In this document: piece by piece, positions 1 through 64,000 of the stretch
Layout of the letters: the number at the start of each line of letters is the position of its first letter
Numbering within the stretch: position 1 is the stretch's first letter
NCBI RefSeq assembly: GCF_014699005.1
Contig: NZ_JACWZY010000012.1
Span: forward strand, 62,001 to 126,000
From: Spirosoma profusum
GTDB lineage: Bacteria; Bacteroidota; Bacteroidia; Cytophagales; Spirosomataceae
Direction of reading: 5' to 3'
DNA: 64,000 nt
Notes under the pieces: generated by a model
What the model saw: the letters and a program-made list of their open reading frames with translations, nothing else
What the model was told of the DNA's origin: nothing
Database searches by the model: none
Translations under genes and position numbers: made by a program

Positions 1-1
1 T

Positions 2-373
2 GAGACTGAAGGTTTTTTTACACGTGATAAAGCGCGATGGGCCGACTCCTGGGCTCATACACCTTACGTCAATTTTGCCGCTAATTTGTATGGCGGAGAT
101 TTCAGGCTAATCAAAGGCTGGACCGATCTGGAAAAACAGTTCGCGAGCCAGTTCAAGAGTAAGAAGATAATCGATAAAGTCACGGTGCAGAACGCCAATT
201 ACACCATCCATCAGAATGGCAATATGGCGTTTGTTACGTACGACCAGACGTTGCTGGATAGCCACGGCAAAACGACCTCGAAAGAGACACGCGTAGTCGA
301 GAAGATTAACGGCAACTGGAAAATAATCAATGTAATCGCGCTAACAAACCTGCAGAATTTCGCTAAGAAATAA
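2..373 (+). CDS. NTF2-like (SnoaL-type) domain protein, 5' partial
   Basis: The frame is open from base 2, so the gene begins before the window; a TTG at 86 is probably internal. The visible 123 residues run from ETEGFFTRDKARWADSW through KQFASQFKSK to the C-terminal pattern RVVEKINGNWKIINV. That order (aromatic-rich helix, polar middle, closing beta strands with a G-W-K-I turn) is typical of the NTF2/SnoaL cone fold, found in small secreted or cytoplasmic proteins with very varied or unknown ligands. No catalytic residues can be assigned. The gene converges on the lipoprotein gene at 453-968, with a strong hairpin between them. The fold call is by pattern only; the specific function is unknown. 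Confidence 0.6.
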   Translation, partial: ETEGFFTRDKARWADSWAHTPYVNFAANLYGGDFRLIKGWTDLEKQFASQFKSKKIIDKVTVQNANYTIHQNGNMAFVTYDQTLLDSHGKTTSKETRVVEKINGNWKIINVIALTNLQNFAKK

Positions 374-387
374 GGAAATTCACGTTT

Positions 388-438
388 AAAATGTAAAAGC
401 CAGTAATCTGACTATCAGATCACTGGCTTTTACATTTT
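388..438. terminator. bidirectional hairpin terminator between convergent genes
   Basis: A perfect 17-bp stem (388-404 with 422-438) encloses a second 6-bp stem (406-411 with 415-420), giving an almost continuous hairpin. The outer stem begins with A residues and ends with T residues, so it can act as an intrinsic terminator in both directions, for the NTF2-like gene on the plus strand and the lipoprotein gene on the minus strand. Confidence 0.75.
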
Positions 439-452
439 AACGCGAATACAGT

Positions 453-968
453 TCAATTTATGGCTTGAGCAGTCTCGCCCGAAGCCATTTTGCCCGTAAT
501 AACATGGTCTTCAAGTAAGCGTTTGATGATACTGCTGGGTGGCACCTGTTCGCCATACGTTGGATTTGAGGAAACAATGGCTTTCCAGAATGGCTGACCT
601 GTGGCCGCAGTTTTCATGTCAACATCATACTCATATGGTACGTTGGTATACTGACTCGACTGGCCCCGCTGAACTAGTTCGAGTGTTAGTATGACGTCAC
701 TCTGACAGTTGGCTACCTGCTTACGGATTTCCTCGTCTGGATTACCGAACGACAGTGGAGTCAATGCCAGCGTGCATACGTCGTAATTCCTTGGAAACTG
801 ACGGGCGAATCCCTGGACATACTTTTCCGAAGCCTTCCGTAGTTTCGTCACAATCAGCACGCGCTTGAACGTTGGGATAGCGTCTGCCTGAACATTCGAT
901 TTCACCGTGACGCAGCCTGTCAAACTAACCATTATAGTTACAACAAGCCATTTGTAGAGCGTTTTCAT
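453..968 (-). CDS. conserved hypothetical lipoprotein
   Basis: About 171 residues from the ATG at 968. I prefer this start to the upstream TTG/GTG-type starts because it opens directly into a signal peptide (MKTLYKWLVV followed by hydrophobic residues) that ends in the lipobox SLTGC, with Cys19 as the lipidation site. The mature part has alternating beta/alpha character (KRVLIVTKL, DVILTLELV), suggesting a small Rossmann-like or flavodoxin-like fold. I recognise no named family. Stand-alone gene, divergent from the acylase gene at 1091 and convergent with the NTF2-like gene. Probably anchored in a membrane and facing the periplasm; role unknown. Confidence 0.7.
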   Translation of the reverse strand: MKTLYKWLVVTIMVSLTGCVTVKSNVQADAIPTFKRVLIVTKLRKASEKYVQGFARQFPRNYDVCTLALTPLSFGNPDEEIRKQVANCQSDVILTLELVQRGQSSQYTNVPYEYDVDMKTAATGQPFWKAIVSSNPTYGEQVPPSSIIKRLLEDHVITGKMASGETAQAIN

Positions 969-1090
969 AACTAAGAAGCGTTGATTTTCGTCTATTAAGA
1001 TAACTACATATACCAAATAAATAGTTAAATGCCAGTTAAAGATCCTTACTATGGATTGTTAACTATCTTACCAGAAAATAGATCAACGCT

Positions 1091-3543: not shown

Positions 3544-5328
3544 ATGGATATTCAGGAAGAGTTAAAAGTTGCCATTAAACAAGCCATCACCGAACTGTAT
3601 CAGCAGGAAATCGGTGAGGTTGCATTACAGCCTACTAAAAAAGAATTTGACGGACTATACACGTTCGTTACGTTTCCATTGACCAAAATTCTCCGCCAGA
3701 ATCCCGCGCAAATCGGTCAGTCGATTGGTACGTGGCTGGTCGATAACAGCCCTATAGTTAGTCAATTCAACGTAGTACAGGGATTTCTGAACCTCAGCAT
3801 TGATGATTCTGCCTGGATTACGGTGATGAACGACATGGCTACCGACGTAGCATTTGGTACGTTACCCGCTAAAAATCAGTCGGTAATGGTTGAGTTTTCG
3901 TCACCAAACACCAACAAGCCGCTGCATTTGGGGCATTTACGGAATAACTTCCTGGGCGATTCAGTGAGCCGGATTCTGGCTGCCAACGGATATGACGTAG
4001 TGAAAGCCTGCATTGTTAACGATCGGGGCGTTCATATCTGTAAATCGATGCTGGCCTATAAGATGTTCGGAGATGGCGAAACGCCTGAATCGGCTGGTAT
4101 GAAAGGCGATCATTTGATTGGCAAATACTACGTTCTGTTCGATAAAGCGTATAAAACGCAGATCGAAGAAATGGTGGCGCAGGGAACGCCCAAAGAAGAG
4201 GCCGAAAAGCAGGCTCCGCTGATGCAGGAAGTCCAGCAAATGCTACGTCTGTGGGAACAGGGCGATGCCGAAACGGTAGCGCTCTGGCGTAAATTGAATA
4301 ATTGGGTGTATGAAGGTTTCGACGCTACGTATCAGACAATTGGCGTTAGCTTCGACAAGACGTACTACGAATCGAACACGTATATTCTTGGAAAAGAGAT
4401 TGTTGAAGAAGGCCTTCAGAAAGGCGTTTTTTATCAAAAACCTGATAGTTCAGTCTGGATTGATCTGACAGAGGAAGGACTCGACCAGAAACTGGTGCTA
4501 CGTTCCGATGGTACGTCGGTATACATGACGCAGGACCTCGGCACTACCGATTTGAAGTTTCAGGATTTTCATAATGACCGCCAGATTTGGGTAGTTGGCA
4601 ACGAACAGGACTATCATTTTAACGTATTATTTGCTATACTACGTCGGCTGGGGCGCCCGTATGCCAACAATCTGTATCACCTGTCGTACGGTATGGTCGA
4701 TCTGCCCACGGGCAAGATGAAATCACGGGAAGGCACCGTAGTTGACGCCGACGATCTGATTCAGGAAACGACCGAAGCGGCTTCTACGGCTGCCGACGAA
4801 GCGGCTAAAGGAAAACTCGACGAATTCAGTGACGCCGAGAAAGCGGCCTTGTTCACTACGTTGGGTTTAGGTGCGTTGAAGTACTATTTGCTGAAGGTCG
4901 ATCCGCAGAAGCGGATGCAATTCAATCCAGCCGAATCGGTTGATTTACATGGCAATACGGGGCCGTATATTCAGTACGTTCATGCTCGTATTCAGTCTGT
5001 TTTACGTAAAGCTGTCGAATTAAACGTATTGACTGATAAGCCGGTGGAGGCAACCGATCTTGACGAAATTGAGCAGCAACTTGTATTTCTGTTAAGTCAG
5101 TATCCGCAGCGAGTTGAAGAGGCCGGGCAAGACTACGCTCCCTCCTATCTGGCGCAGTATGCCTACGAGTTAGCCAAAACTTTCAATCAGTTTTACGATA
5201 AATTGTCGATTCTGAAGGAGGTCGATCCAGTGAAGCTGCACACGCGCCTGGTTTTGGCCAAAGTGGTTGGTGAAACTATTCGGAAGGCAATGGGTTTAAT
5301 GGGAATAGACGTTCCTGATAAAATGTGA
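3544..5328 (+). CDS. argS: arginyl-tRNA synthetase
   Basis: Class I aminoacyl-tRNA synthetase of 594 residues that charges tRNA-Arg with arginine using ATP, in the cytosol. It shows the ArgS-specific N-terminal additional domain (about 1-95), the HIGH-type motif HLGH at residues 128-131 in the context SSPNTNKPLHLGHLRNN, the family signature for the catalytic core around GNEQDYHFNVLFAIL, and a KMSKS-loop variant, KMKSREGT. The C-terminal DALR anticodon-binding helical domain includes GPYIQYVHARIQSVLRKA. The length and the ATG at 3544 fit the family well. Own promoter just upstream; stands alone. Confidence 0.97.
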   Translation: MDIQEELKVAIKQAITELYQQEIGEVALQPTKKEFDGLYTFVTFPLTKILRQNPAQIGQSIGTWLVDNSPIVSQFNVVQGFLNLSIDDSAWITVMNDMATDVAFGTLPAKNQSVMVEFSSPNTNKPLHLGHLRNNFLGDSVSRILAANGYDVVKACIVNDRGVHICKSMLAYKMFGDGETPESAGMKGDHLIGKYYVLFDKAYKTQIEEMVAQGTPKEEAEKQAPLMQEVQQMLRLWEQGDAETVALWRKLNNWVYEGFDATYQTIGVSFDKTYYESNTYILGKEIVEEGLQKGVFYQKPDSSVWIDLTEEGLDQKLVLRSDGTSVYMTQDLGTTDLKFQDFHNDRQIWVVGNEQDYHFNVLFAILRRLGRPYANNLYHLSYGMVDLPTGKMKSREGTVVDADDLIQETTEAASTAADEAAKGKLDEFSDAEKAALFTTLGLGALKYYLLKVDPQKRMQFNPAESVDLHGNTGPYIQYVHARIQSVLRKAVELNVLTDKPVEATDLDEIEQQLVFLLSQYPQRVEEAGQDYAPSYLAQYAYELAKTFNQFYDKLSILKEVDPVKLHTRLVLAKVVGETIRKAMGLMGIDVPDKM

Positions 5329-7685: not shown

Positions 7686-10559
7686 TTATTCCCGCACAAT
7701 CTTGCGCGTCAGCATTTCCTGACCGACCTGTATCGTAAGTAGATACGTCCCCACGATGTCGGGCATTTGTATGGATTCGGTCAGCGAAGAAACCGGGCCG
7801 AAAGGTTTCTGAAAAACAGATCGCCCCTGTAAATCGCGCAAGTGTAGCGTTACGTCCTTTTTCTGTGTCAGCGTAAGTTCGACTCGTACTACGTCGTGAG
7901 CCGGGTTAGGATAAATCCATAACTGACCACCCGCAAATTTCTCGGCTTCGGTAGGTATCACTACGTTGATAAGGGCTTGCCCAGTTGCCGTTCCTTTACC
8001 ACAACCGTTCTCGACACTCGCTACCGAATACGTAGTGGTTTGGGCGGGCCGAACACGGAGTTCGGTTGGTGTGACGCTGCTTAAAAAGTTAGTTCCGTCG
8101 GAGAGACTACCCTGCCAGGGAGCATCGCCTGTGAACGCCAGCGAAAGCGAAGCGGGTTGCCCCTGCAAAACCGACATTGATCCCGTCAACGTAGCAGTTG
8201 GCAACGGTTTAATGGTGAACGGATCGCTCGGAACCAGTTGCGGATTGGCGATACCACGTGGACGAACCCGCACGCGATACGCCGAGCCAGCCGGTACGTT
8301 AGCGGGAATGGTAGCTTTCAGGCTGGCTAACGTACCAGAACCGACCAGATTATCGCCGGAGAAATTACCGGTTGCATCCGAAAGTATTATGTCATACTGC
8401 CAGTTTTCGGGCTGATACGCATTTTCAGAAACCGCCGTTACGTCGAAACTTCCGCCGATGCAGACCGACGTAACGGTTTTAGCTGTCACTTTCGGCGGCA
8501 AAAAATTGATGGCTACCTGCCCTGATCCCGTTCCTTTGCCGCAAGCATTTTCAACGCTTGCAATGGAGTAAGAAGTGGTTGCCGTAACCTGAATGGGGAT
8601 GACGGCGGGGGTAATCGTTGTTGAAAAAGCCGATAATGACGAGCCATTCGATAACGTACCAGTCCAGGGTCCGTCGCCGGTGAGGGAGATGGTTAACGAC
8701 GCAGGTTGCCCCTGTAATACCGTCGCAGGACCGGTCAGGGTGGCGGTGGGTGGTGCTTTAATGGCAAAACCATCACTTGCCACGAGTTCGGCGTAAGGAA
8801 CTCCGCGCGGACGAACGCGCACCCGGTAACCAGAACCAACCGGAAGACCCGCCGGAATCGTCGCTTTTAACGTAGCAAGTGTGCCCGAACCTACGATTCG
8901 CTCCGTCGCAAAATTACCGGACGCATCCGAAAGTAATACGTCGTATTGCCAGCCAGCCGCTTTGGTCGTATTCTCCGGTGTGGCCGTTACGGTGAACGTA
9001 CCACCTGGACAAACGGAGGTCGTACCGGTTGCTTTAGCGGTTAAGCGAGGAGGGGCTTGTACCGTTACATTAAACTGGTCGGTTAAGCACTGCTGGCCGT
9101 CTGTAACCGAAATCGGGAAAGCACCCGCCTTGTCGGCAACGTAGCGAAACGAACGCCCTGTTTGCCCGCCGGGCCATCGGTAATCGCCTATCCACGAAGC
9201 CGAAAATTGCAACGTATCACCAAACTCAGTAGCCAAAGCGGTCGTTTTTGCTACGTTCTTCATGATGGTAAAACGGTCTCGAACGGAGCCATCGCTGGTC
9301 AGAAACTGCGCATCCAGCCGATTCTCCACTACGTCCAGCAACATGGAGCCGCCGATGATATTGTTATAATACAGCATAGCCGGATGCGGGTAATCAACAG
9401 CCTGCCCGCCAAGCTGCCCACCCGACCCATTCACTACGTATACGGTTCCCTGTCCCTTCGTCAGAATTGGGCACGAGTTCGGCGATCCATCGTAGCGACC
9501 CGTCGTATTCTCGACAACGTAAGCATTTTTGTCGTAGGTATTGGCCAGTCCGCGATGTCCTTTCATTCGATACGTTCGCTCATACCCATGACTATGCCCG
9601 TTCAGGACTAAATCAACGCCGTAACGCTCCAGAATGGGCGTCAGGTTTTCCCGAATGAGCCGCATGGCCTCTTCGGTGTCGGAGTTACGCCCCCCTTTAC
9701 TATAAGGTGGATGGTGGAAAATGACGACCGTCCAGGGCAGTTTATTAGCGGCCAGATCGCGCTTGAGCCATTGTACCTGCGTTGTCGTGGTATCATAAAG
9801 CCGAAACTGCCCCTCCTGCCTACCTTGAGAATCGAGTGAAATCAGATGAACCGGGCCATAATCAGCAGAAAAATACGATTTTGAACCTGATGGAACCCCA
9901 CCTGCTTCGCCCTGTTGCGGAAATGAAAACAGGTTGTAATACGGTATATTAAAGTTTACTTCACTATCGGCATAGTCATGATTACCGGGTGTTGTGAAGA
10001 TGGGTAAATTTCGGAGAGTTTGCGGATAGGCCGAAAAAACATACTTATTGTATTCGTCTTCCTGACCACAGCAATAGGCGTGATCGCCGAGCCAGACCCA
10101 AACATCGGCGCGCTTGTTAACAGTCGCATTCAGGTAGGACTGATAAACGTTTTTCTGATTATCATTACCTGCCCCAAAGTCGCCTAGCGCCCAGAGTCGA
10201 ATCGATTGCTTATCACCTGGAACTGGTGCTGTTTTAACGTAGTAATCATCGCCTGCTCCGAGCTGTTTATCATCGTACCCAACAGCGTAAGCGTAGCGTG
10301 TGGAGGGTTGCAATCCCTTTATAGTCAGGCTGTGTTCAACTCCCGACTGCGATTCGCTTATGTTACTATTTAGCTGATTCGTTTGCGGTCCGTACCAGAT
10401 TCGACCAACAGTAGGCTGATCGGTTTGCCACCGCACGACAACCGAAGTTGGCGTAAGCACCTGCAAATAAGGACCTCGCGTGATTTTCGCATTCTGTGCA
10501 TAAACAGCCTGGCAAAAAATTAAGAGGTACAGGATAATGACAAAGCGACTGAATTTCAT
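7686..10559 (-). CDS. secreted purple-acid-phosphatase-like metallophosphoesterase with Ig-like modules and T9SS sorting tail
   Basis: 957 residues. Order: signal peptide (MKFSRFVIILYLLIFCQAVYAQ); N-terminal purple-acid-phosphatase beta domain (about 24-110, RGPYLQVLTPTSVVVRWQT); a binuclear-metal phosphoesterase core with GDFGAGN, WLGDHAY, TPGNHD, HHPPYS and NGHSHGYER (about 125-330); then two long tandem beta modules of about 180 residues each that are close copies of one another (shared WQYDxxLSDAxGNF, VRVRPRG and VLQGQPASL); and a C-terminal type IX secretion signal (WIYPNPAHDVVRVELTL to LTRKIVRE). The enzyme is thus expected outside the cell or on its surface, hydrolysing phosphomonoesters for phosphate scavenging. 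The duplicated modules probably serve as spacers or binding domains. A -7 promoter element lies just upstream. Confidence 0.9.
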   Translation of the reverse strand: MKFSRFVIILYLLIFCQAVYAQNAKITRGPYLQVLTPTSVVVRWQTDQPTVGRIWYGPQTNQLNSNISESQSGVEHSLTIKGLQPSTRYAYAVGYDDKQLGAGDDYYVKTAPVPGDKQSIRLWALGDFGAGNDNQKNVYQSYLNATVNKRADVWVWLGDHAYCCGQEDEYNKYVFSAYPQTLRNLPIFTTPGNHDYADSEVNFNIPYYNLFSFPQQGEAGGVPSGSKSYFSADYGPVHLISLDSQGRQEGQFRLYDTTTTQVQWLKRDLAANKLPWTVVIFHHPPYSKGGRNSDTEEAMRLIRENLTPILERYGVDLVLNGHSHGYERTYRMKGHRGLANTYDKNAYVVENTTGRYDGSPNSCPILTKGQGTVYVVNGSGGQLGGQAVDYPHPAMLYYNNIIGGSMLLDVVENRLDAQFLTSDGSVRDRFTIMKNVAKTTALATEFGDTLQFSASWIGDYRWPGGQTGRSFRYVADKAGAFPISVTDGQQCLTDQFNVTVQAPPRLTAKATGTTSVCPGGTFTVTATPENTTKAAGWQYDVLLSDASGNFATERIVGSGTLATLKATIPAGLPVGSGYRVRVRPRGVPYAELVASDGFAIKAPPTATLTGPATVLQGQPASLTISLTGDGPWTGTLSNGSSLSAFSTTITPAVIPIQVTATTSYSIASVENACGKGTGSGQVAINFLPPKVTAKTVTSVCIGGSFDVTAVSENAYQPENWQYDIILSDATGNFSGDNLVGSGTLASLKATIPANVPAGSAYRVRVRPRGIANPQLVPSDPFTIKPLPTATLTGSMSVLQGQPASLSLAFTGDAPWQGSLSDGTNFLSSVTPTELRVRPAQTTTYSVASVENGCGKGTATGQALINVVIPTEAEKFAGGQLWIYPNPAHDVVRVELTLTQKKDVTLHLRDLQGRSVFQKPFGPVSSLTESIQMPDIVGTYLLTIQVGQEMLTRKIVRE

Positions 10560-11459: not shown

Positions 11460-14400
11460 TTACGCCTTATCTACTTTGATACGTAGTCGGAATTCGTCCA
11501 TATCAATTTCCGTTGCCGAACCGTTCAAATCTGGCACCAGTTCGAGCGAAACGGCCTGAACTTCCTGACTGATGTAATCCCGGTTGGTTTCGATAGCGGT
11601 CGCCAGTACCGCATCGTTACGTTCGAGCTGAATTTTTATCTTGTCGGTCACGGCAAAATCGCGGTCTTTACGCAGATTCTGTACGCGGTTCACAAAATCG
11701 CGGGCGATACCTTCGCTACGTAGTTCGTCCGTTACGTTCACGTCGAGGGCAACCGTCAGACCGCCTTCGCTGGCCACCAGCCAGCCGGGAATATCTTCGG
11801 TCTGAATTTCGACATCAGCCAGACGTAGTTCGTACTCGCCAATTTTCAGGTAATCAGTCCCTTCCAGTTCACGAAGTTGTTCTTCATTCATGGACGTAAT
11901 GGCTGCTGCTACGTCTTTCATCTGCTTTCCGAATTTCGGACCCAACGCCTTGAAGTTCGGTTTCACTCGTTTCTTCAGAATTCCGCTGGCATCGTCGACA
12001 AACTCGACCGCTTTTACGTTCACTTCCGACATAATAATCGGTGCTACGTGCAAAAGTTGTCGACGCGTATCAGCATTCAAAACCGGAATCAACACACGGC
12101 TAAGTGGCTGACGTACTTTCAGTTTGTGGCCTTTCCGCAAGGAGTGTACCAGCGACGAAACACCCTGAGCGCCATCCATCGACTCTTCCAGCTCGATATT
12201 AATCAGCGACTGGTCAGCCTTCGGAAAATCTGTCAGGTGAACCGACGTAGCGCCTTCCGTAAGATTCCGATACAACCAGTCCGCGTAGAACGGCGCGATG
12301 GGCGACATCAGTTGAGCCACCGTAGTCAGACACTCGTGCAGAGTCTCGTAAGCAGCCCGTTTGTCGGTCGTCATTTCGCCGTCGGACGTGACCGAAAGGT
12401 CGGCCCCGCCCAGCCAGAAACGCCGACGCGATAACCGAACGTACCAGTTCGAGAGTTGATCGTTCACAAAATCCTGAACAGCCCGGCCTGCTTTAGTCGG
12501 GTTGTAGCTGTCGAACTGGCGTTCCACTTCCTGAATGAGCGATTGCAGTTTCGAGATAATCCAGCGATCAAGCTCGGGCCGCTCGGCTACAGGAACGGTA
12601 CGTCCGGCAAACGAGAAATTATCCAGATTGGCGTAAAGCGCGAAGAAATTATACGTATTCGACAACGTACCGAATAACTTCCGCTGCACTTCACCAATGC
12701 CGTCAATATTGAATTTCAGGTTATCCCAGGGCTCGGCGTTGGTGATCATGTACCAGCGCGTCGCATCGGGACCATACTGCGCCAACGTAGCAAACGGGTC
12801 AACAGCGTTACCCAACCGTTTCGACATTTTGTTGCCGTTTTTATCAAGCACCAACCCCGTAGATACTACGTTCTTAAACGCCACTGAATCAAACAGCATT
12901 CCCGCAATAGCGTGAAGCGTAAAGAACCAGCCGCGCGTCTGGTCGACACCTTCCGAGATAAAATCAGCCGGAAACGCTTTTTCGAAAATATCCTTATTCT
13001 CAAATGGATAATGCCATTGCGCATAGGGCATCGCACCCGAATCGAACCAGACGTCGATCAGGTCAGACTCACGCTGCATGACGTTGCCACTGTCCGAAAC
13101 GAAATACACCTCATCGACGTAAGGCCGGTGCAGGTCATAATCTCCCAGAGAAAGCTGATGCAGGAAAGCTCCGTTTTTGCTACGTTGCTCATCGGTCAGG
13201 GCATCGCTCCACTGCGCTTTTTGTACGCGTTCTTTCAATTCTTCCACCGAACCAATACACACTTCTTCGCCCGTTTCGCTACGCCAGATCGGCAACGGCG
13301 TTCCCCAGAAACGACTGCGACTCAGGTTCCAGTCAACCAGGTTTTCGAGCCAGTTGCCGAAGCGACCCGTTCCGGTGCTTTCGGGTTGCCAGTTGATGGT
13401 TTTGTTCAATTCGACCAACCGATCTTTTGCCGCGGTTGTGCGGATAAACCAGCTATCGAGCGGATAGTATAAAATCGGTTTATCGGTCCGCCAGCAGTGC
13501 GGGTACGGGTGTTCATATTTCTCAACGCGAAAGGCTTTGTTTTCTTCCTTTAGTTTGATCGCAATCAGTACGTCGGTTGGTTTGAAATCAGGGGCGTCGC
13601 GTTCTTCATCGGAATAATATTCCTCCTTAACGTAGCGTCCGGCAAAATCCGTGATTTCATCCACAAACAGACCGTGTTTATCCACAATCGGTACGTCCTT
13701 ACCGGTTTCATCCTTCACCATAATGGGAGGAATTCCGGCAGCCTGCGCCACGCGAAAGTCGTCAGCCCCGAACGTTGGCGACGTATGTACGACACCGGTA
13801 CCATCTTCTGTCGTTACGAAATCACCCAAAATCACCCGGAAAGCGGGAACTTCAGGCGTTACGTAGGGCAGCAATTGTTCATACTCGATTCCTTCGAGAT
13901 GCGCGCCTTTGAACTCCGAAACAACATACCACGGAATAACTTTGTCGTTTGGCAGATACGCGTCGAAGGCCGGACTCTTTGGGTCGGTCTGATGGCCTTT
14001 TTCGTTAAACCAACGGCTCACCAACGCCTTCGCCAGTACTACGTGGATTGCCTCAAACGTGTACGGATTGAATGTCTTGACCAGTACATAGTCGATGTCT
14101 TTCCCAACTGTCAGGGCCGAGTTAGCGGGTAACGTCCAGGGCGTCGTTGTCCAGGCCAGAATATAGATATCGGCATCGGCCGAATCGAAGAACAGAAATC
14201 CTGATTTACCCGTTGGCTTCACCTTAAACTGGGCTACTACGGTCGTATCGCGCACATCTTTATACGTACCGGGCATATTTAATTCATGCGAACTCAGGCC
14301 CGTTCCCGCCTTGGGTGAATACGGCTGAATGGTGTACCCTTTATAGAGTAAACCTTTATCGTACAGCTGTTTGAGCAACCACCAGACGGATTCAATGTAT

Positions 14401-14891
14401 TCATTTTTATACGTAACGTAGGGATTGTCGAGATCGACCCAGTAGCCCATTTTCTGGGTCACTTCGTTCCATTGGTCGGTAAACCGCATTACCGTTTCGC
14501 GGCATTTGCGGTTATATTCCTCTACGCTGATGCCTCCCTCCGATTCAGGTTTGCCGATATCGTCTTTCGTGATACCAAGCTCCTTTTCGACCTGCAACTC
14601 AATGGGCAGCCCATGCGTATCCCAACCGCCTTTCCGTTCGACCTGAAAGCCTTGCAACGTTTTGTACCGGCAGAAAATATCTTTAATTGTCCGGGCCATG
14701 ACGTGGTGAATACCCGGCGTTCCGTTGGCCGACGGCGGACCTTCGTAGAACGTAAACCGGAGCTCCGGACCGTTTGGCTTCCCATCGCGAATGGCGACGG
14801 ATTGCTCAAATATCTGATTCTGATTCCAGTAGGTCAAAACCTCGGCCGCGATCTTCGCGTAATCGAGGGACTCATATTGCTGATACTTCAC
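11460..14891 (-). CDS. ileS: isoleucyl-tRNA synthetase
   Basis: About 1143 residues; class I synthetase that charges tRNA-Ile and edits misactivated valine. Motifs: the HIGH region as GPPSANGTPGIHHVMA (the usual form in this phylum's long IleS), RKGGWDTHGLPIE, the CP1 editing domain (around TTTPWTLPANSAL and GTGVVHTSPTFGADDF), the WFF box in the context SEGVDQTRGWFFTLHA, and KMSKS as KMSKRLGN. The long C-terminal extension fits the eukaryote-like IleS type. No ATG is present near the start: I choose the GTG at 14891 (VKYQQYESLDYAKIA); a TTG at 14906 in the same frame is the alternative. Own -7 element upstream and terminator downstream. Confidence 0.97.
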   Translation of the reverse strand: MKYQQYESLDYAKIAAEVLTYWNQNQIFEQSVAIRDGKPNGPELRFTFYEGPPSANGTPGIHHVMARTIKDIFCRYKTLQGFQVERKGGWDTHGLPIELQVEKELGITKDDIGKPESEGGISVEEYNRKCRETVMRFTDQWNEVTQKMGYWVDLDNPYVTYKNEYIESVWWLLKQLYDKGLLYKGYTIQPYSPKAGTGLSSHELNMPGTYKDVRDTTVVAQFKVKPTGKSGFLFFDSADADIYILAWTTTPWTLPANSALTVGKDIDYVLVKTFNPYTFEAIHVVLAKALVSRWFNEKGHQTDPKSPAFDAYLPNDKVIPWYVVSEFKGAHLEGIEYEQLLPYVTPEVPAFRVILGDFVTTEDGTGVVHTSPTFGADDFRVAQAAGIPPIMVKDETGKDVPIVDKHGLFVDEITDFAGRYVKEEYYSDEERDAPDFKPTDVLIAIKLKEENKAFRVEKYEHPYPHCWRTDKPILYYPLDSWFIRTTAAKDRLVELNKTINWQPESTGTGRFGNWLENLVDWNLSRSRFWGTPLPIWRSETGEEVCIGSVEELKERVQKAQWSDALTDEQRSKNGAFLHQLSLGDYDLHRPYVDEVYFVSDSGNVMQRESDLIDVWFDSGAMPYAQWHYPFENKDIFEKAFPADFISEGVDQTRGWFFTLHAIAGMLFDSVAFKNVVSTGLVLDKNGNKMSKRLGNAVDPFATLAQYGPDATRWYMITNAEPWDNLKFNIDGIGEVQRKLFGTLSNTYNFFALYANLDNFSFAGRTVPVAERPELDRWIISKLQSLIQEVERQFDSYNPTKAGRAVQDFVNDQLSNWYVRLSRRRFWLGGADLSVTSDGEMTTDKRAAYETLHECLTTVAQLMSPIAPFYADWLYRNLTEGATSVHLTDFPKADQSLINIELEESMDGAQGVSSLVHSLRKGHKLKVRQPLSRVLIPVLNADTRRQLLHVAPIIMSEVNVKAVEFVDDASGILKKRVKPNFKALGPKFGKQMKDVAAAITSMNEEQLRELEGTDYLKIGEYELRLADVEIQTEDIPGWLVASEGGLTVALDVNVTDELRSEGIARDFVNRVQNLRKDRDFAVTDKIKIQLERNDAVLATAIETNRDYISQEVQAVSLELVPDLNGSATEIDMDEFRLRIKVDKA

Positions 14892-14964
14892 GGCTGAGAG
14901 AATCAAAACGGCCTAAATCGCTCTGTTTGCGTCAGCAGCGACTTGGCCGGTAAAAAAATAAGTG

Positions 14965-15466: not shown

Positions 15467-15659
15467 AAAGATTGAACCGTTTCAAAAACTGAGTTATGTG
15501 CCTTTGTGACGTTAGACTCTCACGTCTGCGGTTTGGTGGTTTACCACATAACGTATCAGCAAAACCGTTCATCTAATTCGCCTTGCCTGCTTAGTCTGGA
15601 AATCAGTATTTTGGAGGTTATTGAACAACCGTTTACTAAACTCCATTTTCAAACTAATC

Positions 15660-16772
15660 ATGCGAAAAATTACCTATCTGTTCAGTGCAGCCGCGCTATG
15701 TTTAAGTTCGCTGTCTGCCGTTGCCCAGCTTATATTTCCAGCCGATGGCGGCAACAAAAAAGCGTCTGTCTCCGAACGTATCGGCATCACCGACGTAACG
15801 ATTCACTACGACCGACCCGCCGTGAAAGGTCGCGAAGGAAAAGTCTGGGGTGAACTGGTGCATTATGGTTACAAAGATTTAGGATTTGGTTCCAGTAAAG
15901 AATCTCCCTGGCGGGCGGGGGCCAACGAAAACACTACTATTACGTTCAGCACCGACGTGAACGTAGAAGGCAAACCACTGGCAGCGGGTACGTATGGTCT
16001 GATGATGGGCGTTCAGGAAAATGACGTAACGGTGATTTTTTCGAAGAATGCTACGTCCTGGGGCAGCTACTTTTACGATCCCAAAGAGGATGCGCTACGT
16101 GTTTCGGTGAAACCGCTGAAAAATCAGCCGTCGGTGGAACGACTCAAGTATGAGTTCATGAACGAAACCGACAGTTCGGCGGTCATTGCCTTGCTATGGG
16201 AAAAATGGACAATTCCATTTACGGTTTCGGTTAACCTCGTGCAAACGCAGCTGGCTTCGCTACGTAACGAACTACGGAGCGAAAAAGGGTTCCGCTGGGA
16301 TGCCTATCAGCAAGCGGCTAATTACGTAGCGGACCATAAAACTAACCTTGAAGAAGGACTGCGCTGGGCGGATTATTCCATCAACGGACAGTTTGTTGGC
16401 GAAAAGAATTTCAGTACGTTACAAACCAAAGCCCGGCTCCTTGCTATGCTAAACCGAACAGCCGAAGCCGACGCGCTTATGAAAGAAGCCCTGCCGATGG
16501 CCAACATGCAGCAGGGCTATCAATACGGCCGACAGTTGATTAACCAGAAAAAAGGTAAAGAAGCACTCACGTTTTTTCAGGATTATGCAAAAAAATACCC
16601 TAACGTATTCACGGCGAACATGGGCCTGATGCGGGCTTACTCGGCGGTAGGCGATTACAAATCGGCCACCGACTGGGGCAAAAAAGCACTCGCTGTGGCT
16701 CCTGATAACAACAACAAAGCCAACGTTGAGCGCTTACTAGGTCAGTTGCAGCAAGGGAAAGATGTGAATTAA
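15660..16772 (+). CDS. secreted DUF2911 domain protein with C-terminal TPR-like helices
   Basis: 370 residues from the ATG at 15660 (a TTG 39 bp upstream is in frame but would break up the signal peptide). Signal peptide MRKITYLFSAAALCLSSLSAVAQ. Residues of about 35-185 match the DUF2911 pattern of this phylum: VSERIGITDVTIHYDRPAVKGR, VWGELVHYG, WRAGANENTTITF, LAAGTYGLMM and ATSWGSYFY. The C-terminal half has helix pairs resembling TPRs (AANYVADHKTNLEEGLRWAD, KEALTFFQDYAKKYPN, KSATDWGKKALAVAPDN). The domain has no established biochemical role; the protein is probably periplasmic. Monocistronic, 98 bp before the HPF-like gene. Confidence 0.85.
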   Translation: MRKITYLFSAAALCLSSLSAVAQLIFPADGGNKKASVSERIGITDVTIHYDRPAVKGREGKVWGELVHYGYKDLGFGSSKESPWRAGANENTTITFSTDVNVEGKPLAAGTYGLMMGVQENDVTVIFSKNATSWGSYFYDPKEDALRVSVKPLKNQPSVERLKYEFMNETDSSAVIALLWEKWTIPFTVSVNLVQTQLASLRNELRSEKGFRWDAYQQAANYVADHKTNLEEGLRWADYSINGQFVGEKNFSTLQTKARLLAMLNRTAEADALMKEALPMANMQQGYQYGRQLINQKKGKEALTFFQDYAKKYPNVFTANMGLMRAYSAVGDYKSATDWGKKALAVAPDNNNKANVERLLGQLQQGKDVN

Positions 16773-16870: not shown

Positions 16871-17242
16871 ATGCAATCAGACGAAAGTTTAGACAATGTA
16901 CGCTTAGATATTGAAGCCGTAGGGTTCACTCTGGACGACGATATGCGGGCCTCCGTCCTGGATGCGCTCACCAAGCTTCGACGTTTCTACAAAGGCGATG
17001 TTATCACAGCCGATGTGTATCTGAAAGTAGAACCGAGTCAACGTAGCAACAACCGACACGTAGGCATCAAATACGGCATCCCTGGTAACGATGCTTTCGC
17101 CGAAGACTCCGGCGATAACTGGTATGAGCTAATCAATAACGTAGTGGGCAAGCTCCAACGCCAGTTAGAAAAGCGTTTTGGTAACCACACCCACGACCAC
17201 CGCGCTAACATCGACGAAATCGACCCAGCCAGTTTAGTTTAA
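16871..17242 (+). CDS. HPF/RaiA-family ribosome-associated protein
   Basis: 123 residues. The layout fits the short hibernation-promoting-factor fold (beta-alpha-beta-beta-beta-alpha): an N-terminal strand and helix (DDMRASVLDALTKLRRFYKG), strands (VITADVYLKVEPSQRSNNRHVGIKYGIPG), and the long final helix with basic residues (WYELINNVVGKLQRQLEKRFG), then an acidic, His-rich tail. Members bind the 30S subunit and shut down or stabilise idle ribosomes under stress. The length suggests the short form without the dimerising C-terminal domain. The assignment rests on pattern and secondary structure. A hairpin follows the stop codon. Confidence 0.7.
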   Translation: MQSDESLDNVRLDIEAVGFTLDDDMRASVLDALTKLRRFYKGDVITADVYLKVEPSQRSNNRHVGIKYGIPGNDAFAEDSGDNWYELINNVVGKLQRQLEKRFGNHTHDHRANIDEIDPASLV

Positions 17243-17264
17243 TTTTAGGGTTTGTAAATATAAC

Positions 17265-17293
17265 CGCCCGGTTTTCGCAGAGAAGGCCGGGCG
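17265..17293 (+). terminator. hairpin after the HPF-like gene
   Basis: A 7-bp GC stem (CGCCCGG at 17265-17271 with CCGGGCG at 17287-17293) lies 23 bp after the stop codon. The following sequence is only moderately T-rich, so this is a weak intrinsic terminator at best. Confidence 0.5.
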
Positions 17294-17393
17294 ATTGATT
17301 GTTACTGATAGCTACCCCGAAGTAATTAATATATCATTTGGCTATAATAGTTTATTTAAGTATGTTTGATGACCCATCCGTAACAACCCAAGT

Positions 17394-17591
17394 ATGAGTG
17401 ATGAAGAACGCGCTGAGTGGCTGGCTCAACGTAAACGATTAGTTTTCTATTTTGAAGAAACTCAACAACAAATTATTGATTACCCAGCTAAAGCAAACGA
17501 TGAAGATTACTTGTTTCTGACTCGGAAAGCCATTTATTATCAGGATATGATTAATAAGTTAGATGACCTCTTAAACTCAGGCGATAACTAA
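17394..17591 (+). CDS. small hypothetical protein
   Basis: 65 residues, charged and predicted mostly helical (MSDEERAEWLAQRKRLVFYF to NKLDDLLNSGDN). No family recognised, no signal peptide. It is followed after 7 bp by another small ORF in the same direction, so the two probably form one transcript. Base composition is visibly AT-richer than in neighbours, and the hexamer CTACGT/ACGTAG, common elsewhere in the window, is absent from this stretch; both suggest recent acquisition. Confidence 0.55.
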   Translation: MSDEERAEWLAQRKRLVFYFEETQQQIIDYPAKANDEDYLFLTRKAIYYQDMINKLDDLLNSGDN

Positions 17592-17598
17592 AAAAGCT

Positions 17599-17853: not shown

Positions 17854-17892
17854 TATAGATTTACTCCCACAATAAGTCAGGATCTTACTTTA

Positions 17893-52232: not shown

Positions 52233-53498
52233 ATGACCCACTGGCGTATTAAACTTTCACTGATTCTCAACTATTTCGTATTTGCGATTCTGCTCAATAG
52301 TGTAGGCACAGTTATCTTACAGGTTCAGAATAACTACGGCGTTTCCGAATCTTCGGCCAGCGTGCTCGAAGCATTTAAAGACCTCACCATTGCCCTTGTC
52401 TCGTTTCTGATCGCGTCATACATCACCCGGATTGGCTACAAACGGGCGATGCTTTTCGCACTTGCTTTGGTAACACTGGCCTGTCTGTTGATGCCGCAGG
52501 TACCCGCCTTCTGGACGACCAAATTGCTCTTTGCCGCTACCGGTGCTGGATTTGCCCTCATCAAAGTGTCCGTTTTTGCCACTATCGGTCTGATAACGAA
52601 CGATGCCAACGAACACGCCAGTTTCATGAATTTTCTCGAATCGTTTTTCATGATTGGCGTATTGTCGGGATATTTCCTGTTCAGTGCTTTCGTAGATGAC
52701 AAGAATCCCCAATCGACGAGCTGGTTAACAACGTACTACGTGTTGGCTGGAATTTCGCTGATAGCTTTCCTTCTCCTACTCAGCACATCCATCGACGAGT
52801 CGGGCGTTCGTCACGAAGCGACAAAGAGTTTTGCCGACGATCTGGGCGATATGCTACGTCTGGCCATTTTACCCGTTGTACTCGTATTTATTTTTACGGC
52901 CTTCGTCTACGTACTGATGGAGCAAGGCATCATGAGCTGGCTCCCAACATTCAACAGCAAGATTCTAAAGTTACCCGTTTCGCTGAGTATTCAGATGGCC
53001 AGCATTCTGGCGGCTTCAACGGCGGCTGGACGTTTTCTGGCGGGAGTTCTACTGAACAGAATTTCGTGGTACTGGCTTCTGATGATTTGCCTTGTAGTAT
53101 CGGCGGGGTTGGTTCTGCTGGCGCTTCCGCTGGCCGCTTCGGTCGATGGGAGTAACGTAACGGGTTGGGGCGATGCGCCGGTTGCAGCTTTTGTTTTCCC
53201 GCTCATTGGCCTTTGCATTGCGCCAATTTACCCGGCCATCAACTCGGCAATTTTAAGCAGTCTGCCGCTACGTCAGCACGGGCCAATGGCTGGTCTGATC
53301 GTCATTTTCTCCGCACTGGGAGGAACAACTGGCTCCATCATCACAGGACACGTTTTTGAAGCCTACGGCGGTCAGACAGCCTTTTACTTTTCGCTAATCC
53401 CCATCGGCCTGCTTCTGCTGCTAATCACCATATTTCACCGAATGCAGCAGAAAACCGGCCGGGAAGTGAAGCTGGTGTCAGGTGTGGGAGGGCATTAA
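52233..53498 (+). CDS. MFS transporter (FucP/sugar-type)
   Basis: 421 residues with about twelve hydrophobic segments and the usual central cytoplasmic loop (about 185-205, DESGVRHEATKSFADD). The N-terminal half has the short MFS loop signature SYITRIGYKRAMLFALALV; the C-terminal half has AAGRFLAGVLLNRISWYWLL and FPLIGLCIAPIYPAINSAIL, which resemble the FucP group of sugar:proton symporters. The substrate is not evident. The gene overlaps by 4 bp, tail to tail, with the lipoprotein gene at 53495. Confidence 0.88.
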   Translation: MTHWRIKLSLILNYFVFAILLNSVGTVILQVQNNYGVSESSASVLEAFKDLTIALVSFLIASYITRIGYKRAMLFALALVTLACLLMPQVPAFWTTKLLFAATGAGFALIKVSVFATIGLITNDANEHASFMNFLESFFMIGVLSGYFLFSAFVDDKNPQSTSWLTTYYVLAGISLIAFLLLLSTSIDESGVRHEATKSFADDLGDMLRLAILPVVLVFIFTAFVYVLMEQGIMSWLPTFNSKILKLPVSLSIQMASILAASTAAGRFLAGVLLNRISWYWLLMICLVVSAGLVLLALPLAASVDGSNVTGWGDAPVAAFVFPLIGLCIAPIYPAINSAILSSLPLRQHGPMAGLIVIFSALGGTTGSIITGHVFEAYGGQTAFYFSLIPIGLLLLLITIFHRMQQKTGREVKLVSGVGGH

Positions 53499-53950
53499 GG
53501 TTTGCTTTTTTCGTAGGTATAGAGATTGCCGTCTAATTCGGTATTATCGAAAATCAGTTTCGTTGAACAAACGCTAAAAACACCCTGATTCAATGTTACA
53601 ACGGATGTACCTGATGACTTATTGATCGTTTTGTACCTGATCGATTTGTCAGGCTGCTCTAAAACTAATTGATAACTGATGGTTTCTTTACCTTCCTCGT
53701 ATAAAGTAGCTTTCTGTTGATCATCAATGGCCATTTCAAGTAATTTATCCGGGGTTTTGACATCTCCTGTCCATCCAGATTTACTTGATACCAGTCGCCA
53801 ACGTCCTACAGCTTGTTTTTTAGCTTCACTAAGACCAATGGTTGATGATCCACAATCTTCTTGGGCAATTGATTTTTGCTGACAGTTAACCAGTAAGCTC
53901 GATCCTATCATAAGGACAGAAGCTAGCAAGATTTTAAGTAAACTTTTCAT
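53495..53950 (-). CDS. small lipoprotein, lipocalin-like hypothetical
   Basis: 151 residues from the ATG at 53950; the open frame extends further upstream, but only this start gives a clean signal peptide (MKSLLKILLASVLMIGSSLLVNC, Cys23 as probable lipid site, with Asn at -1 being unusual). The stretch AVGRWRLVSSKSGWTG followed by short beta strands (TISYQLVLEQPDKSIRYKTI, TSVVTLNQGVFSVCSTKLIF) resembles small lipocalin-like lipoproteins of this phylum. Ligand unknown. Base composition is AT-richer and CTACGT motifs are lacking, as in the metalloprotease region next to it. Confidence 0.6.
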   Translation of the reverse strand: MKSLLKILLASVLMIGSSLLVNCQQKSIAQEDCGSSTIGLSEAKKQAVGRWRLVSSKSGWTGDVKTPDKLLEMAIDDQQKATLYEEGKETISYQLVLEQPDKSIRYKTINKSSGTSVVTLNQGVFSVCSTKLIFDNTELDGNLYTYEKSKP

Positions 53951-54123
53951 GGTACTAATGTTTATCCCAATGACCATATTCATAGACAAAGGGTTGGAAT
54001 ACCTTTCTCCGAAATAAACCATACTCCTCACTATCTTCAAATCAATTCTTTAATTGAGAAGGGAGAAGTATGGTTATAAAATTCGCTGTATGTTCATTTC
54101 AATGTAATGAGTACTTCAAAATA

Positions 54124-55197
54124 TCAATTCAATGTACGATCTCCAGTTTTAAGAATTGTTCCTCCCGGATTTCCTACTTCATGTATCCAGATATCATAAA
54201 CACCTGGAGTAAGAAGAGGGCGAAAATTGGCATTATTCGGTATATCTGCCTTGTTAATCAAAACACCTGATTTGAAAATCTTACACGTAACAGTTGTTGA
54301 ACAGAAACGGGATATTTGCCATCGGATAAGACATTCCCTAAAGAAACCTTGCGGAGCAATAAGATCAAACCATATTTGGGTCATTACATCATCTCCATAT
54401 ACGGCTCTTAGAGCGGATATATCCCATTCAGAAAACGAACTCCACTGTGGAATAGAGTTTGAGTCGGTCGTAAGGCCCGTGGCTGGACCACTATTGAAAA
54501 CAGACTGTGGGTCACTTGATGGTGAAAATGGAGCCTGGAAATTGTTGAAATTACCAAGATCTGTGTGCATGAAACCAAAGTTGTGCCCAATTTCATGAGC
54601 GATTGTGTAATGCAGTCGACTATCTGTCATTGATTCAGATTGAAAGTTAAGATCAATCGTTGGCCCAGGATTACAATTTGACGGCCACGTACCCAACCCA
54701 TATTCTCCAGCCGCGAAACTTGAATTATACCGTATGGTAATATCTGGGGAATACAGTTCAGTATAGTACATGTTAACTCGGCAAAAGGAAACGTCATTCC
54801 AACTATTGATTGCCGCTTGAGTTGCCACAATGACTTTTTGCCTCTAGGTTTCATTCGGAAAGCTATGGTCAACGGTTACAGCTACGTTTGGTGCATGCCA
54901 GGAAGATACCAGAGGAGTGAAGTCGACAAGTGTCTGGCTCTTTTTAGCATTCTTTGATTTTTTAGGCTTATCAAATTTGATATCTCCCTGTACAACCCAG
55001 TAGTCTCCTTTATCAACGACATCACTTTTCTTAAATCCCAAGGCTAAGATCTTTTTTAAAACAACGTCTGTTTCGTCCAATTTGACCGTTGAGGCCGCTG
55101 GGATTGTGTCATCCGGATGACAAGATGTAATTAGGAGTAGACCAACGCAGAGCACAGTAGTAGCTGCATACCGAATTGACTTTACGAAAAAGTTCAT
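54124..55197 (-). pseudogene. M57-type (HExxHxxGxxH) metalloprotease lipoprotein gene with in-frame amber codon
   Basis: One frame of 358 codons is broken only by TAG (plus-strand 54844-54846). The first part has a signal peptide and lipobox LLLITSC (Cys26) and the M57 propeptide-like pattern VVLKKILALGFKKSDVVDKG-D-Y-x-V-x-G-D-I. After the stop, RQKVIVATQAAINSWNDV leads into the catalytic motif HEIGHNFGFMH (His201, Glu202, His205, His211 in joined numbering), then a C-terminal beta domain. Homologues have Trp at the first position of WRxAxxxAINxWN, so a TGG to TAG change explains the break. Secreted zinc proteases of this kind are common in soil Bacteroidota. As written only a 117-residue fragment would be made; a sequencing error or readthrough are the alternatives. 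Confidence 0.78.
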
Positions 55198-62365: not shown

Positions 62366-62406
62366 TGCTACGTTCGTCTTTAGCTCTGGAGCCTATTTAA
62401 AATCCA

Positions 62407-62499
62407 TTTTTGTCATGCTAAGGAACGAAGCATCTTAACGTTTCCAGACACACAAACAAGGATAGTTTAAGATGCTTCGTTCCTCAGCATGACAAAAAA
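62407..62499. repeat. palindromic intergenic repeat, family A copy 6
   Basis: The arms 62407-62438 and 62467-62499 are inverses with one mismatch (left arm GCTAAGGAACG, right arm complement GCTGAGGAACG). Core subtype GAGGAACGAAGC. It lies between the thioredoxin-like gene and the barrel gene. Confidence 0.9.
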
Positions 62500-62616
62500 C
62501 CCTCTTTAGCGTTGTATTCTCGAAAGTTTAAACAGCTTCCTAATCTAAAGTCGATACGTTCAAAACCGACGTAGCGAAATTCTGGTTATGCTTTGCGTAG
62601 TGAAGTAAACAACTCT

Positions 62617-63765
62617 ATGCGGAAACCATACTCCAGTTCTTTTGTCAGGCACTTGTTGCTGATTGGCTTATTCATGGGCCAGTCTGCCGACGTACTGGCT
62701 CAGACGCTGGTGAAGCGGTTGTTCAACCGTTTTCTGAACGATACTACGTCGTCTTCCAATCCGCATGTATCGTTTTATCCGACGCTGGCGTATGCGCCAG
62801 AAACCAGCTTCGAGCTTGGAGCGTCGGCGCTTTACCTTTATCATGCCAACAACAAGGTGCAACAGAACCGGCTGAGTCAGCTTCAGGCGTTCAGTTTTGT
62901 TACGTTACGTGGTCAATACGGCCTTTTCCTCGACCATACCATTTACGGTGATAACGACCGCTGGTATTTTCTGGGACGCGGGCGCATCCAACGATTTCCA
63001 ATCCTTTATTACGGCATTGGTCCCCAAACGAAACCAGATCATCCTGCCACAGTTGATGCGTTTTCGGTTCAACTTCGCGAACGAGCCATGCGCCGACTTC
63101 GACCTAACCTGTTTGGTGGACTGGAGCTTGATTTTCAACACTTAAGTCATATTGAGTTCGAGCAGCCCGAAGGCATGACGCATGACCTTCCGCTGGGTAG
63201 CAATGGTACGTCGAACATTGGTCTTGGACCCGGACTTATTTACGATAGTCGTCCGAGTGCGCTAAATCCACGTAGCGGTTTTTTTGGTGAAGTAGCTTAC
63301 CTCAATTATGGGCAATCACGCGACAACGCTCTTTCCTTTCACAATCTGTTTGCCGATGTACGGATGTATCATCCAATGCGAAAAAATCAGGTACTGGCCT
63401 GGCAGGTCTACGGTAATTTAACGTCAGGTAACGTTCCGTTTAACCAACTGGCTCTGCTGGGTGGCGAAACCATCATGCGGGGTTACTACATGGGCCGTTA
63501 TCGGGATAAGTTTCACGCGGCTGCCCAGATCGAATATCGCTGGTTACCCTTTCCATTCAGCCAGCGATTTGGAGCCGTCGTATTTGCAGCTGTCGGTACG
63601 GTCGCGCCCGCTATCAATCAGGTTCAGTTTAATCACCTGCTACCAACCGGCGGAACAGGTATCCGCTACCTTCTCTTCAAGAAAAAAGATGTTTTTCTAC
63701 GCGCCGATATGGGCATTACCCGCGAAGGCGTAGGCTTCTACATCCTCACCGGCGAATCGTTTTGA
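62617..63765 (+). CDS. BamA/TamA-type outer-membrane beta-barrel protein without POTRA domains
   Basis: 382 residues from the ATG at 62617 (a TTG 24 bp upstream is in frame). Signal peptide MRKPYSSSFVRHLLLIGLFM to VLAQ. The sequence is made of amphipathic beta strands with aromatic girdles (YGLFLDHTIYGDNDRWYFLG, GLGPGLIYDSRPSALNPRSG, FFGEVAYLNYGQSRDN, LALLGGETIMRGYYMGRYRD, AAAQIEYRWLPFPFSQRFG), matching the surface-antigen/Omp85 barrel including the R-G-Y/F motif in strand loop L6 (MRGYYMG). There is no room for POTRA domains, so it is a barrel-only relative whose cargo or ligand is unknown. A perfect palindrome follows the stop codon. Confidence 0.82.
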   Translation: MRKPYSSSFVRHLLLIGLFMGQSADVLAQTLVKRLFNRFLNDTTSSSNPHVSFYPTLAYAPETSFELGASALYLYHANNKVQQNRLSQLQAFSFVTLRGQYGLFLDHTIYGDNDRWYFLGRGRIQRFPILYYGIGPQTKPDHPATVDAFSVQLRERAMRRLRPNLFGGLELDFQHLSHIEFEQPEGMTHDLPLGSNGTSNIGLGPGLIYDSRPSALNPRSGFFGEVAYLNYGQSRDNALSFHNLFADVRMYHPMRKNQVLAWQVYGNLTSGNVPFNQLALLGGETIMRGYYMGRYRDKFHAAAQIEYRWLPFPFSQRFGAVVFAAVGTVAPAINQVQFNHLLPTGGTGIRYLLFKKKDVFLRADMGITREGVGFYILTGESF

Positions 63766-63844
63766 GTGGCAAAGGGCATGGGGCGTTGGGCATAGGGTAA
63801 AAGTAAAGGCAACCCTCTGCCCAACGCCCCATGCCCTTTGCCAC
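63766..63844. repeat. GC-rich palindrome, family B copy 3
   Basis: The arms 63766-63798 and 63812-63844 are 33-bp inverses with a single mismatch, containing GGCAAAGGGCATGGGGCGTT. It begins at the base after the barrel gene stop codon and ends one base before the stop codon of the convergent peptidase gene, filling the gap exactly. Confidence 0.9.
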
Positions 63845-63845
63845 G

Positions 63846-64000
63846 CTACAAACCGTTTTTATCCAGCAAATAAACCAGCGCAGCCATCGACGCACCACCG
63901 AGTTCAAGTTCACGCTGGCTAACGGTTTCGAACGTATCGACCATTGTGTGGTGGTAATCAAAATAACGCTGAGAATCTGGCTTAAAACCGAAGAGTACTG
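63846..64000 (-). CDS. M28-family metallopeptidase, C-terminal fragment (runs off the window)
   Basis: The last 51 residues are visible, ending at a TAG at 63846-63848; the rest lies beyond the window. The peptide VLFGFKPDSQRYFDYHHTMV-D-T-F-E-T-V and RELELGGASMAALVYLLD is the usual C-terminus of exported M28 aminopeptidases in this phylum, in which the YHH-T/S-D-T-F segment contributes a zinc-ligand His. The overlapping ORF on the same strand in another frame (63746-63961) reads into the palindrome and is not real. Confidence 0.75.
   Translation of the reverse strand, partial: VLFGFKPDSQRYFDYHHTMVDTFETVSQRELELGGASMAALVYLLDKNGL

Follow-up and report, generated by a model that had tools for sequence, protein, structure and literature searches.

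The DNA considered here, a 64,000-nucleotide stretch of Spirosoma profusum (C3:62001-126000 of the source genome G000, a draft of 8.73 Mb in 81 contigs with a GC content of 0.48; below, the window), is densely set with a short word found within its genes and between them. A first-pass annotation had described it as an over-represented hexamer, CTACGT/ACGTAG, and this over-representation is confirmed and turns out stronger than claimed: 103 copies of CTACGT and 87 of ACGTAG make 190, whereas base composition predicts 31 over the two strands (6.1-fold). The repeated unit is, by position substitution, not this hexamer but a degenerate, asymmetric octamer, ACGTANYR, of which the window holds 322 copies (158 on the plus and 164 on the minus strand; about one per 199 bp; the first at 232, the last at 63932). 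The isoleucyl-tRNA synthetase gene ileS (11460..14906, minus strand), in which about 15 hexamers had been reported, contains 14 of them and 21 copies of the octamer; the latter start on the plus strand at 11894, 12245, 12439, 12665, 12785, 13630, 14264 and 14411, and have their low ends on the minus strand at 11477, 11615, 11714, 11730, 11907, 12042, 12596, 12864, 13178, 13566, 13689, 13857 and 14037. For a beta-helix gene of 2.4 kb nine hexamers had been reported; four window genes of 2.4-2.9 kb carry 7, 4, 10 and 10. Among named matches, in a comparison that may pass over close records, the window's ileS is nearest to those of Larkinella and Fibrella (74-76% identity). We define a permissible position as a site where the encoded protein allows ACGTANYR via synonymous codons, and score such positions in open reading frames (ORFs) of at least 150 amino acids (aa) found by a simple longest-first caller. 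On this measure, ileS has filled 21 of 35 permissible positions, a 957-aa ORF (7686..10559, minus strand) 20 of 40, a 789-aa ORF (43343..45712, plus strand) 20 of 35 and a 383-aa ORF (DUF2911, TPR; 15621..16772, plus strand) 10 of 12, which is among the highest values in our sample.

That sample, 464 kb in all, consists of the window and 20 further stretches of G000; two motif-poor stretches (L005, L017) were retained in the Markov, unit-substitution, synonymous-shuffle and ORF-occupancy analyses and excluded from those of spacing, noncoding DNA, gene context, odds ratios and specificity. Here the hexamer exceeds expectation 5.5-fold over order 0, 2.1-fold over order 3 and 1.24-fold over order 4, a Markov model which already includes the 5-mer ACGTA, while the octamers ACGTAGCA and AACGTAGC stand 5.9- and 3.9-fold over order 3, so that neither hexamer nor octamers come to a ratio near 1 at that order. 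With each position substituted, the enrichment of ACGTANYR is 10.3-fold against an order-1 and 6.1-fold against an order-2 model, and its sixth base proves free; over order 2, the variants ACGTANYY, ACGTANRR and ACGTANRY reach 1.33-, 0.95- and 0.80-fold, respectively. The hexamer was rejected as the unit: it is a projection of the octamer, which, its sixth base left free, gives the better fit. Between positions -3 and +9 the flanks favour C or G at -2, a base other than C at -1, G at N and a base other than G at +9, and the context AACGTAGC is the preferred form; farther out there are only slight base biases (-21, -8, +13, +22). An AT-tract flank, as carried by the Haemophilus uptake signal, was not seen around the ACGTANYR copies. 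The unit is, in short, a non-palindromic, degenerate octamer with soft flank preferences. Palindromy enters through overlapping double copies (YRNTACGTANYR, 12 bp), which form 13 pairs among the 322 window copies: the first lies at 4323..4334 and the other 12 start at 11437, 16258, 26269, 43231, 43362, 43587, 44262, 47240, 56257, 57487, 59581 and 60749. Across the whole source genome we count 39,401 copies of ACGTANYR (one per 222 bp, or 4.5/kb) against 3,143 of the reversed pattern, and 4,503 copies of AACGTAGC against 259 of its reverse.

Could the motif follow from base composition, codon usage or the proteins encoded? In favour of this, the low species sampled (relatives at or near chance level, see below) do show codon-context habits of about 1.6- to 3.5-fold over synonymous shuffles. 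For G000, however, 20 such shuffles of 294 ORFs, with protein and codon usage kept fixed, yield 308 +/- 14 copies where 1,902 are observed. All six phases are raised over the shuffles, two of them weakly (1.7- and 2.3-fold) and the remaining four 7.4- to 11.6-fold, which bears out the earlier claim that the enrichment is independent of reading frame and not confined to one codon phase. Occupancy tells the same story: 1,899 of 3,895 permissible positions (48.8%; 294 ORFs, 366 kb) are filled, against 7.3% expected from the codon usage of G000 and 5.8% from that of low species, and an enlarged sample (400 kb more, 41 loci in all, motif-poor ones included) gives 3,390 of 7,205 (47.1%). Noncoding DNA is enriched too, as had been noticed between genes: G000 has 188 copies in 50.3 kb free of ORFs of 70 aa (3.74/kb), its low relatives 5 copies in 20.4 kb (0.24/kb). 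Moreover, same-genus species of similar GC (for example G004, G126, G146) sit at chance. Codon usage and protein composition are thus refuted as the cause by the synonymous shuffles together with the noncoding enrichment, and we regard a by-product origin as having next to no probability. Whether amino-acid changes are also affected is hinted at, weakly, by the density of permissible positions, which is on average higher in sampled high genomes (9.0-10.6/kb) than in five low ones (7.5-9.0/kb), with different stretches sampled per genome; the low species G149, at 10.7/kb, undercuts this difference.

Our data further show that the motif is largely, though not perfectly, context-free. Copies are found at 5.4/kb in divergent, 3.5/kb in tandem and 5.8/kb in convergent spacers of G000, and at 3.8-5.3/kb in the bins 0-400 bp upstream of gene starts; it is the thinning in tandem spacers and over the opening 90 bp of genes (3.7/kb, against 5.0-5.9/kb along the next 510 bp) that departs from full independence. 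The dip at gene starts is shared by the relative G106 (1.3 against 1.9-2.0 copies/kb). Relative to gene strand, the 294 ORFs hold 954 and 948 copies, and in 20 stretches of the single-contig chromosome of G106 the G-rich strand carries 370 copies, its complement 348; stricter skew cut-offs there give 350 against 316 and 304 against 279 (z 0.8-1.3 across cut-offs, not significant). Inverted, terminator-like pairs of the motif show no excess other than the overlapping double (114 pairs at distance 4). Occupancy is 0.52-0.56 where another copy lies 12-100 bp off and 0.28 where the nearest is more than 400 bp away, in a table that left out L235, L238, L239, L246 and L247 as well (total occupancy includes them); part of this fall with distance will be due to differences between genes. 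Neighbours at 12-200 bp do not lower occupancy, and there is no saturation. Since the presence of a neighbour leaves occupancy undiminished, copies do not stand in for each other.

A separate repeat also came to light in these counts. Roughly 80 bp long and inverted, it occurs whole or in part at window positions 11282-11363, 15373-15454, 31352-31433, 38195-38295 and 62427-62493, and no 10-mers in the 464-kb sample are more over-represented than those it contains. At 15373 its arms read GTCATGCTGACGAAGGAAGCATCTTAA and complement, with a run of A behind them; the repeat looks like an element of the REP or terminator type.

Among relatives the motif is strong in few. Measured as a ratio to the reversed control, the top of the genus comprises G000 (12.5), G167 (8.7), G131 (7.8), G140 (5.9) and G106 (5.8), followed by middle values in G164 (3.7), G089 (3.2), G161 (2.8) and G114 (2.8); the remaining 27 of 36 congeners, a count that includes G000, range from 1.0 to 2.1 (18 congeners stay below 1.6), so that 5 of 36 exceed fivefold. 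A second genus (g18) has ratios of 4.8 and 4.7 in the two genomes sampled (G018, G044), and together with the top five these are the seven genomes we call high. Other sampled genera of the family show nothing above about 2.3 (150 genomes overall) and the phylum sample outside the family nothing above about 1.7 (395 genomes overall), both read by eye. The filling of permissible positions goes along with these ratios, with 36% in G167, 33% in G131, 30% in G140, 22% in G106, 16% in G018 and 15% in G044, then 13% in G114, 9% in G089 and G098, 8% in G143 and G149, and 5-6.5% in G159, G146, G151, G126 and G004 (own expectation 4.6-5.5%); as the relatives were sampled mostly in the vicinity of ileS, these values reflect a conserved region. 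Within the second genus enrichment is patchy: the ileS regions of G018 and G044 have 1.8 and 2.2 motifs/kb, and two 20-kb stretches (L118 of G018, L119 of G044) only 14 and 8 motifs. Several Bacteroidota, for their part, strongly avoid ACGTANYR (G351, G537, G402, G269, G356, G195, G386), G351 having 13 copies against 1,761 reversed; restriction of a word within ACGTANYR is perhaps the reason.

In an ileS tree, in which 8 of 28 inner branches are open, the high species are scattered, with G131 among low species and G140 beside the low G098; loss from an ancestor or repeated gain are both possible. Where the motif is high, its specificity (flanks included) is closely similar between G106, pooled G167/G131/G140 and pooled g18, albeit with a weaker preference for G at N in G106 and g18. 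Motif sites of G000 are kept in 79 of 153 cases in G167, G131 and G140 (background identity 0.77), in 43 of 165 in G106, G018 and G044 (0.73) and in 19 of 270 in five low species (0.75), orthologues below 60% identity or with a stop being excluded. In ileS, 11 of 15 sites of G131 coincide with sites of G000 (partial ileS genes of G161 and G164 were left out of this comparison). Such shared sites were considered as proof of ancestral retention and rejected as such, as the control for permissible positions removed most of the excess: compared with random placement on jointly permissible positions, sharing is 1.3- to 1.8-fold in 19 of the 21 pairings among high species, and it rises above this for G106-G018 (2.6-fold) and G018-G044 (2.5-fold). 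Because most pairs share sites so little above random, sharing is no proof that individual sites were inherited. A search of six low species for a replacement motif (6-mers and spaced 3+3 words; 15-51 kb of ORFs each) found none comparably strong. The best word, CGANNNTCG in G146 (L160, L161, L116), is a spaced palindrome counted on both strands and reaches 2.8-fold over synonymous shuffles; G146 may thus have a weak motif of its own.

DNA that lacks the motif may be informative about time. Where a gene offers 10 or more permissible positions (163 genes), occupancy has a single peak around 0.5, and four of the 163 have none filled: the gene of a protein of 632 aa that combines QueC and DpnII-MboI domains (L005), that of a tyrosine integrase (L011) and two without Pfam match in L017, a stretch which also holds a Shedu SduA gene. 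The empty genes include members of likely defence islands. L247, nearly motif-free, carries TIR and Roc-COR genes. These motif-free or motif-poor stretches are L005:11092-15135, L011:4978-6264, L017:237-9349 and L247:1-20000. By comparison, ten well-filled genes that we examined include some for housekeeping enzymes (two pseudouridine synthases among them), one for a HipA-like kinase and one for a protein without match. On the simplest reading, new arrivals begin empty and fill slowly, and absence of the motif may mark newly acquired and defence DNA and serve as a practical clock. Within the window, two adjoining minus-strand ORFs of 181 and 234 aa (53495..54828; GC 0.38 and 0.41) have 1 of 12 permissible positions filled and are perhaps such a recent arrival; the widest gap between successive copies, 2,373 bp, spans 17139..19512. 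One 20-kb stretch, L235 (G000:C13:20001-40000), has 0.65 motifs/kb and yet a commonplace metabolic gene content (aminotransferases, S15 peptidase, PAS kinase); it has either been imported recently as a large block or belongs to a wrongly binned contig.

What kind of process fills the sites? We compared the odds of the motif over each one-base neighbour between G000 and 600 kb of low relatives. At positions 1-4 the odds are up 8.2- to 14.1-fold for all 12 substitutions, transitions and transversions being similarly biased; at positions 5, 7 and 8 they are up 4.5- to 8.3-fold, and the one-off variants are themselves enriched 1.3- to 2.4-fold. A bias towards a single type of mutation (deamination, one glycosylase, Vsr) was discarded, as it should not raise the odds of all 12 substitutions. 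Given that all 12 are biased and that copies are not interchangeable, the bias is one per site and on the whole word rather than on one kind of mutation, and our data show it acting on the entire octamer, one site after another, in all the sequence contexts tested. Whatever reads the word reads all of it and grows gradually more tolerant toward the 3' side; weak variants enriched at positions 5, 7 and 8 are what graded affinity would give. If the bias is one of fixation, its scaled coefficient would be around ln 12 = 2.5 per site. A sequence-recognising protein is the likely cause. To our minds, there is an even chance that a so far undescribed, sequence-specific factor of this family rewrites the chromosome site by site, with little regard to genes, toward ACGTANYR, be it as sequence-coded chromatin or as a motif-level drive of biased repair. 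Such a factor would have filled half of the sampled permissible positions and perhaps slightly bent protein sequences on the way, and it would be strong in some congeners and absent from others.

The version we favour, albeit tentatively and at clearly less than an even chance, sees the chromosome as a dense binding platform for a putative motif-binding protein. One homologous DNA-recognising protein may be present in the high species of both genera, reading an asymmetric site of about 12 bp and probably binding it as a monomer. It would be an abundant chromosomal protein with a nucleoid-organising or genome-maintenance role; each bound site would add a small benefit, so that the chromosome could evolve into a platform of about 39,000 sites, and species that lose or weaken the protein would revert to chance level. 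We prefer this because half of the permissible sites are filled, noncoding DNA is enriched and strand bias is lacking, and because the odds are graded as affinities would be, specificity is similar across species, occupancy stays undiminished near neighbours and motif sites of G000 are kept more often in high relatives than in low ones. Several points weigh against it. No candidate protein was found, and there is no known case of a bacterial nucleoid protein whose own motif is enriched tenfold genome-wide. The copies show no helical phasing or regular spacing (coefficient of variation of gaps 1.29), those 8-11 bp apart are slightly depleted (33 against 46 expected), and the motif thins at gene starts and in tandem spacers without the avoidance upstream of genes that an occluding chromatin protein might cause. 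Every observation also fits a per-site bias of repair or conversion that brings no benefit.

In that alternative, a motif-recognising factor would settle mismatches toward ACGTANYR, at whichever position, wherever DNA is heteroduplex or freshly replicated. The largely context-free and strand-free distribution, the lack of saturation between neighbours and the similar bias of transitions and transversions at positions 1-4 all agree with it, as does the weak hint of bent proteins in the higher average density of permissible positions, were it not for G149. Known motif-directed repair of the Vsr kind, however, fixes one mismatch type and not all, no enzyme was found, and the graded enrichment of weak sites resembles affinity more; we consider biased repair possible but not probable. 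A factor that reads the word could also be a methyltransferase, orphan or restriction-linked, whose methylation or methyl-directed mismatch repair maintains the frequency of its site in the way suggested for HIP1. An asymmetric, degenerate 8-mer is plausible as a recognition site, and HIP and alternative HIP motifs of cyanobacteria accompany matching methyltransferases (PMC4390886). Yet the C5 methylases (PF00145) are missing from five of the seven high genomes (G167, G131, G140, G106, G044), PF01555 (N4/N6) from three (G000, G140, G044) and PF02086 (D12) from three (G000, G131, G140), so that none of the three families is shared by all high genomes; the methylation signal envisaged by the first-pass annotation gains no support. 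Matches to PF07669 and PF02384, many of them weak, occur in 30 of 32 genomes, in all seven high and in most low ones too, which is too wide a spread to be decisive, and the strong matches of G000 have no equally strong counterpart in G167 or G131 (unaligned). Add to this that the flank preferences are soft and that 4.5 copies/kb is far above the saturation near 1/kb of a published repair model (PMC4390886), and a methylation origin appears rather unlikely.

Uptake of motif-bearing DNA by competent cells, with recombination spreading the word by molecular drive, had likewise been proposed and seems improbable to us. Its appeal lies in the clade-specific abundance, the absence from some lineages and the motif-poor arrivals, all of which recall uptake sequences, and in a competence channel of the ComEC type, matched in 31 of 32 genomes (the sole non-match is 71% complete). 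ComEC is, however, equally present in low species, and a PilB/PilT/GspE-type ATPase did not show up in the 32 genomes beyond short PF00437 fragments (none longer than 119 of 370 positions) in 16 of them, with 43 of 44-61 candidates scored in many; fragments passed the cut-off marginally in three of the 32, while controls passed it in 13 of 14. Nor do the copies behave like uptake sites, as they neither space out evenly nor saturate and their density far exceeds one per DNA fragment. Least compelling of these, a role in Chi-like recombination control or as an FtsK-type orienting signal would suit a motif frequent across the core chromosome. Such signals are polar, though, and neither the replichores of G106 nor gene strand give the octamer a significant orientation; we hold this to be very improbable.

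Why genomes fill with one short word, HIP1 being the known example, is an unsettled question. Among the matches listed in our literature search, which left subscription papers mostly outside its coverage, no publication dealt with ACGTANYR or with an iterated motif in Spirosomaceae. The genus offers a natural experiment: congeners span 5% (chance) to 49% occupancy, and specificity is closely similar where occupancy is high. A comparison of gene contents should therefore be able to find the gene responsible, and an effect of this strength would allow selection and drive to be weighed by measurement.

Set beside known systems, the octamer shares some traits with each. Vsr/Dcm repair shows how a repair bias could raise the frequency of a motif, but it acts on one mismatch type adjoining 5-methylcytosine, whereas here all tested substitutions are biased and most high genomes (five of seven) are without C5 methylases. 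Like Chi, ACGTANYR is frequent in the core genome; unlike Chi, it has no strand polarity, and its core holds the palindrome ACGT instead of being G-rich. The uptake sequences of Neisseriaceae and Pasteurellaceae (DUS, USS) are clade-specific, scarce in recently acquired DNA and present at roughly one per kb; ACGTANYR is equally clade-specific, abundant and scarce in recent arrivals, yet denser, unspaced and unsaturated, closely similar in specificity across two genera and unaccompanied by a detectable pilus ATPase. The earlier likening to HIP1 stands in part. HIP1 (GCGATCGC) and alternative HIPs are high through most of the cyanobacterial clade and low in sporadic members, at 0.3-2.7 copies/kb for HIP1, and the cause of their iteration is described as unsettled (PMC4390886). 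ACGTANYR differs from them in being degenerate and asymmetric rather than palindromic, in having no methyltransferase that we found common to the high genomes and no replacement motif in low species, and in its greater density (4.5/kb). What it has in common with HIP1 is the kind of phenomenon: a short motif, iterated genome-wide and independently of coding, well beyond Markov expectation.

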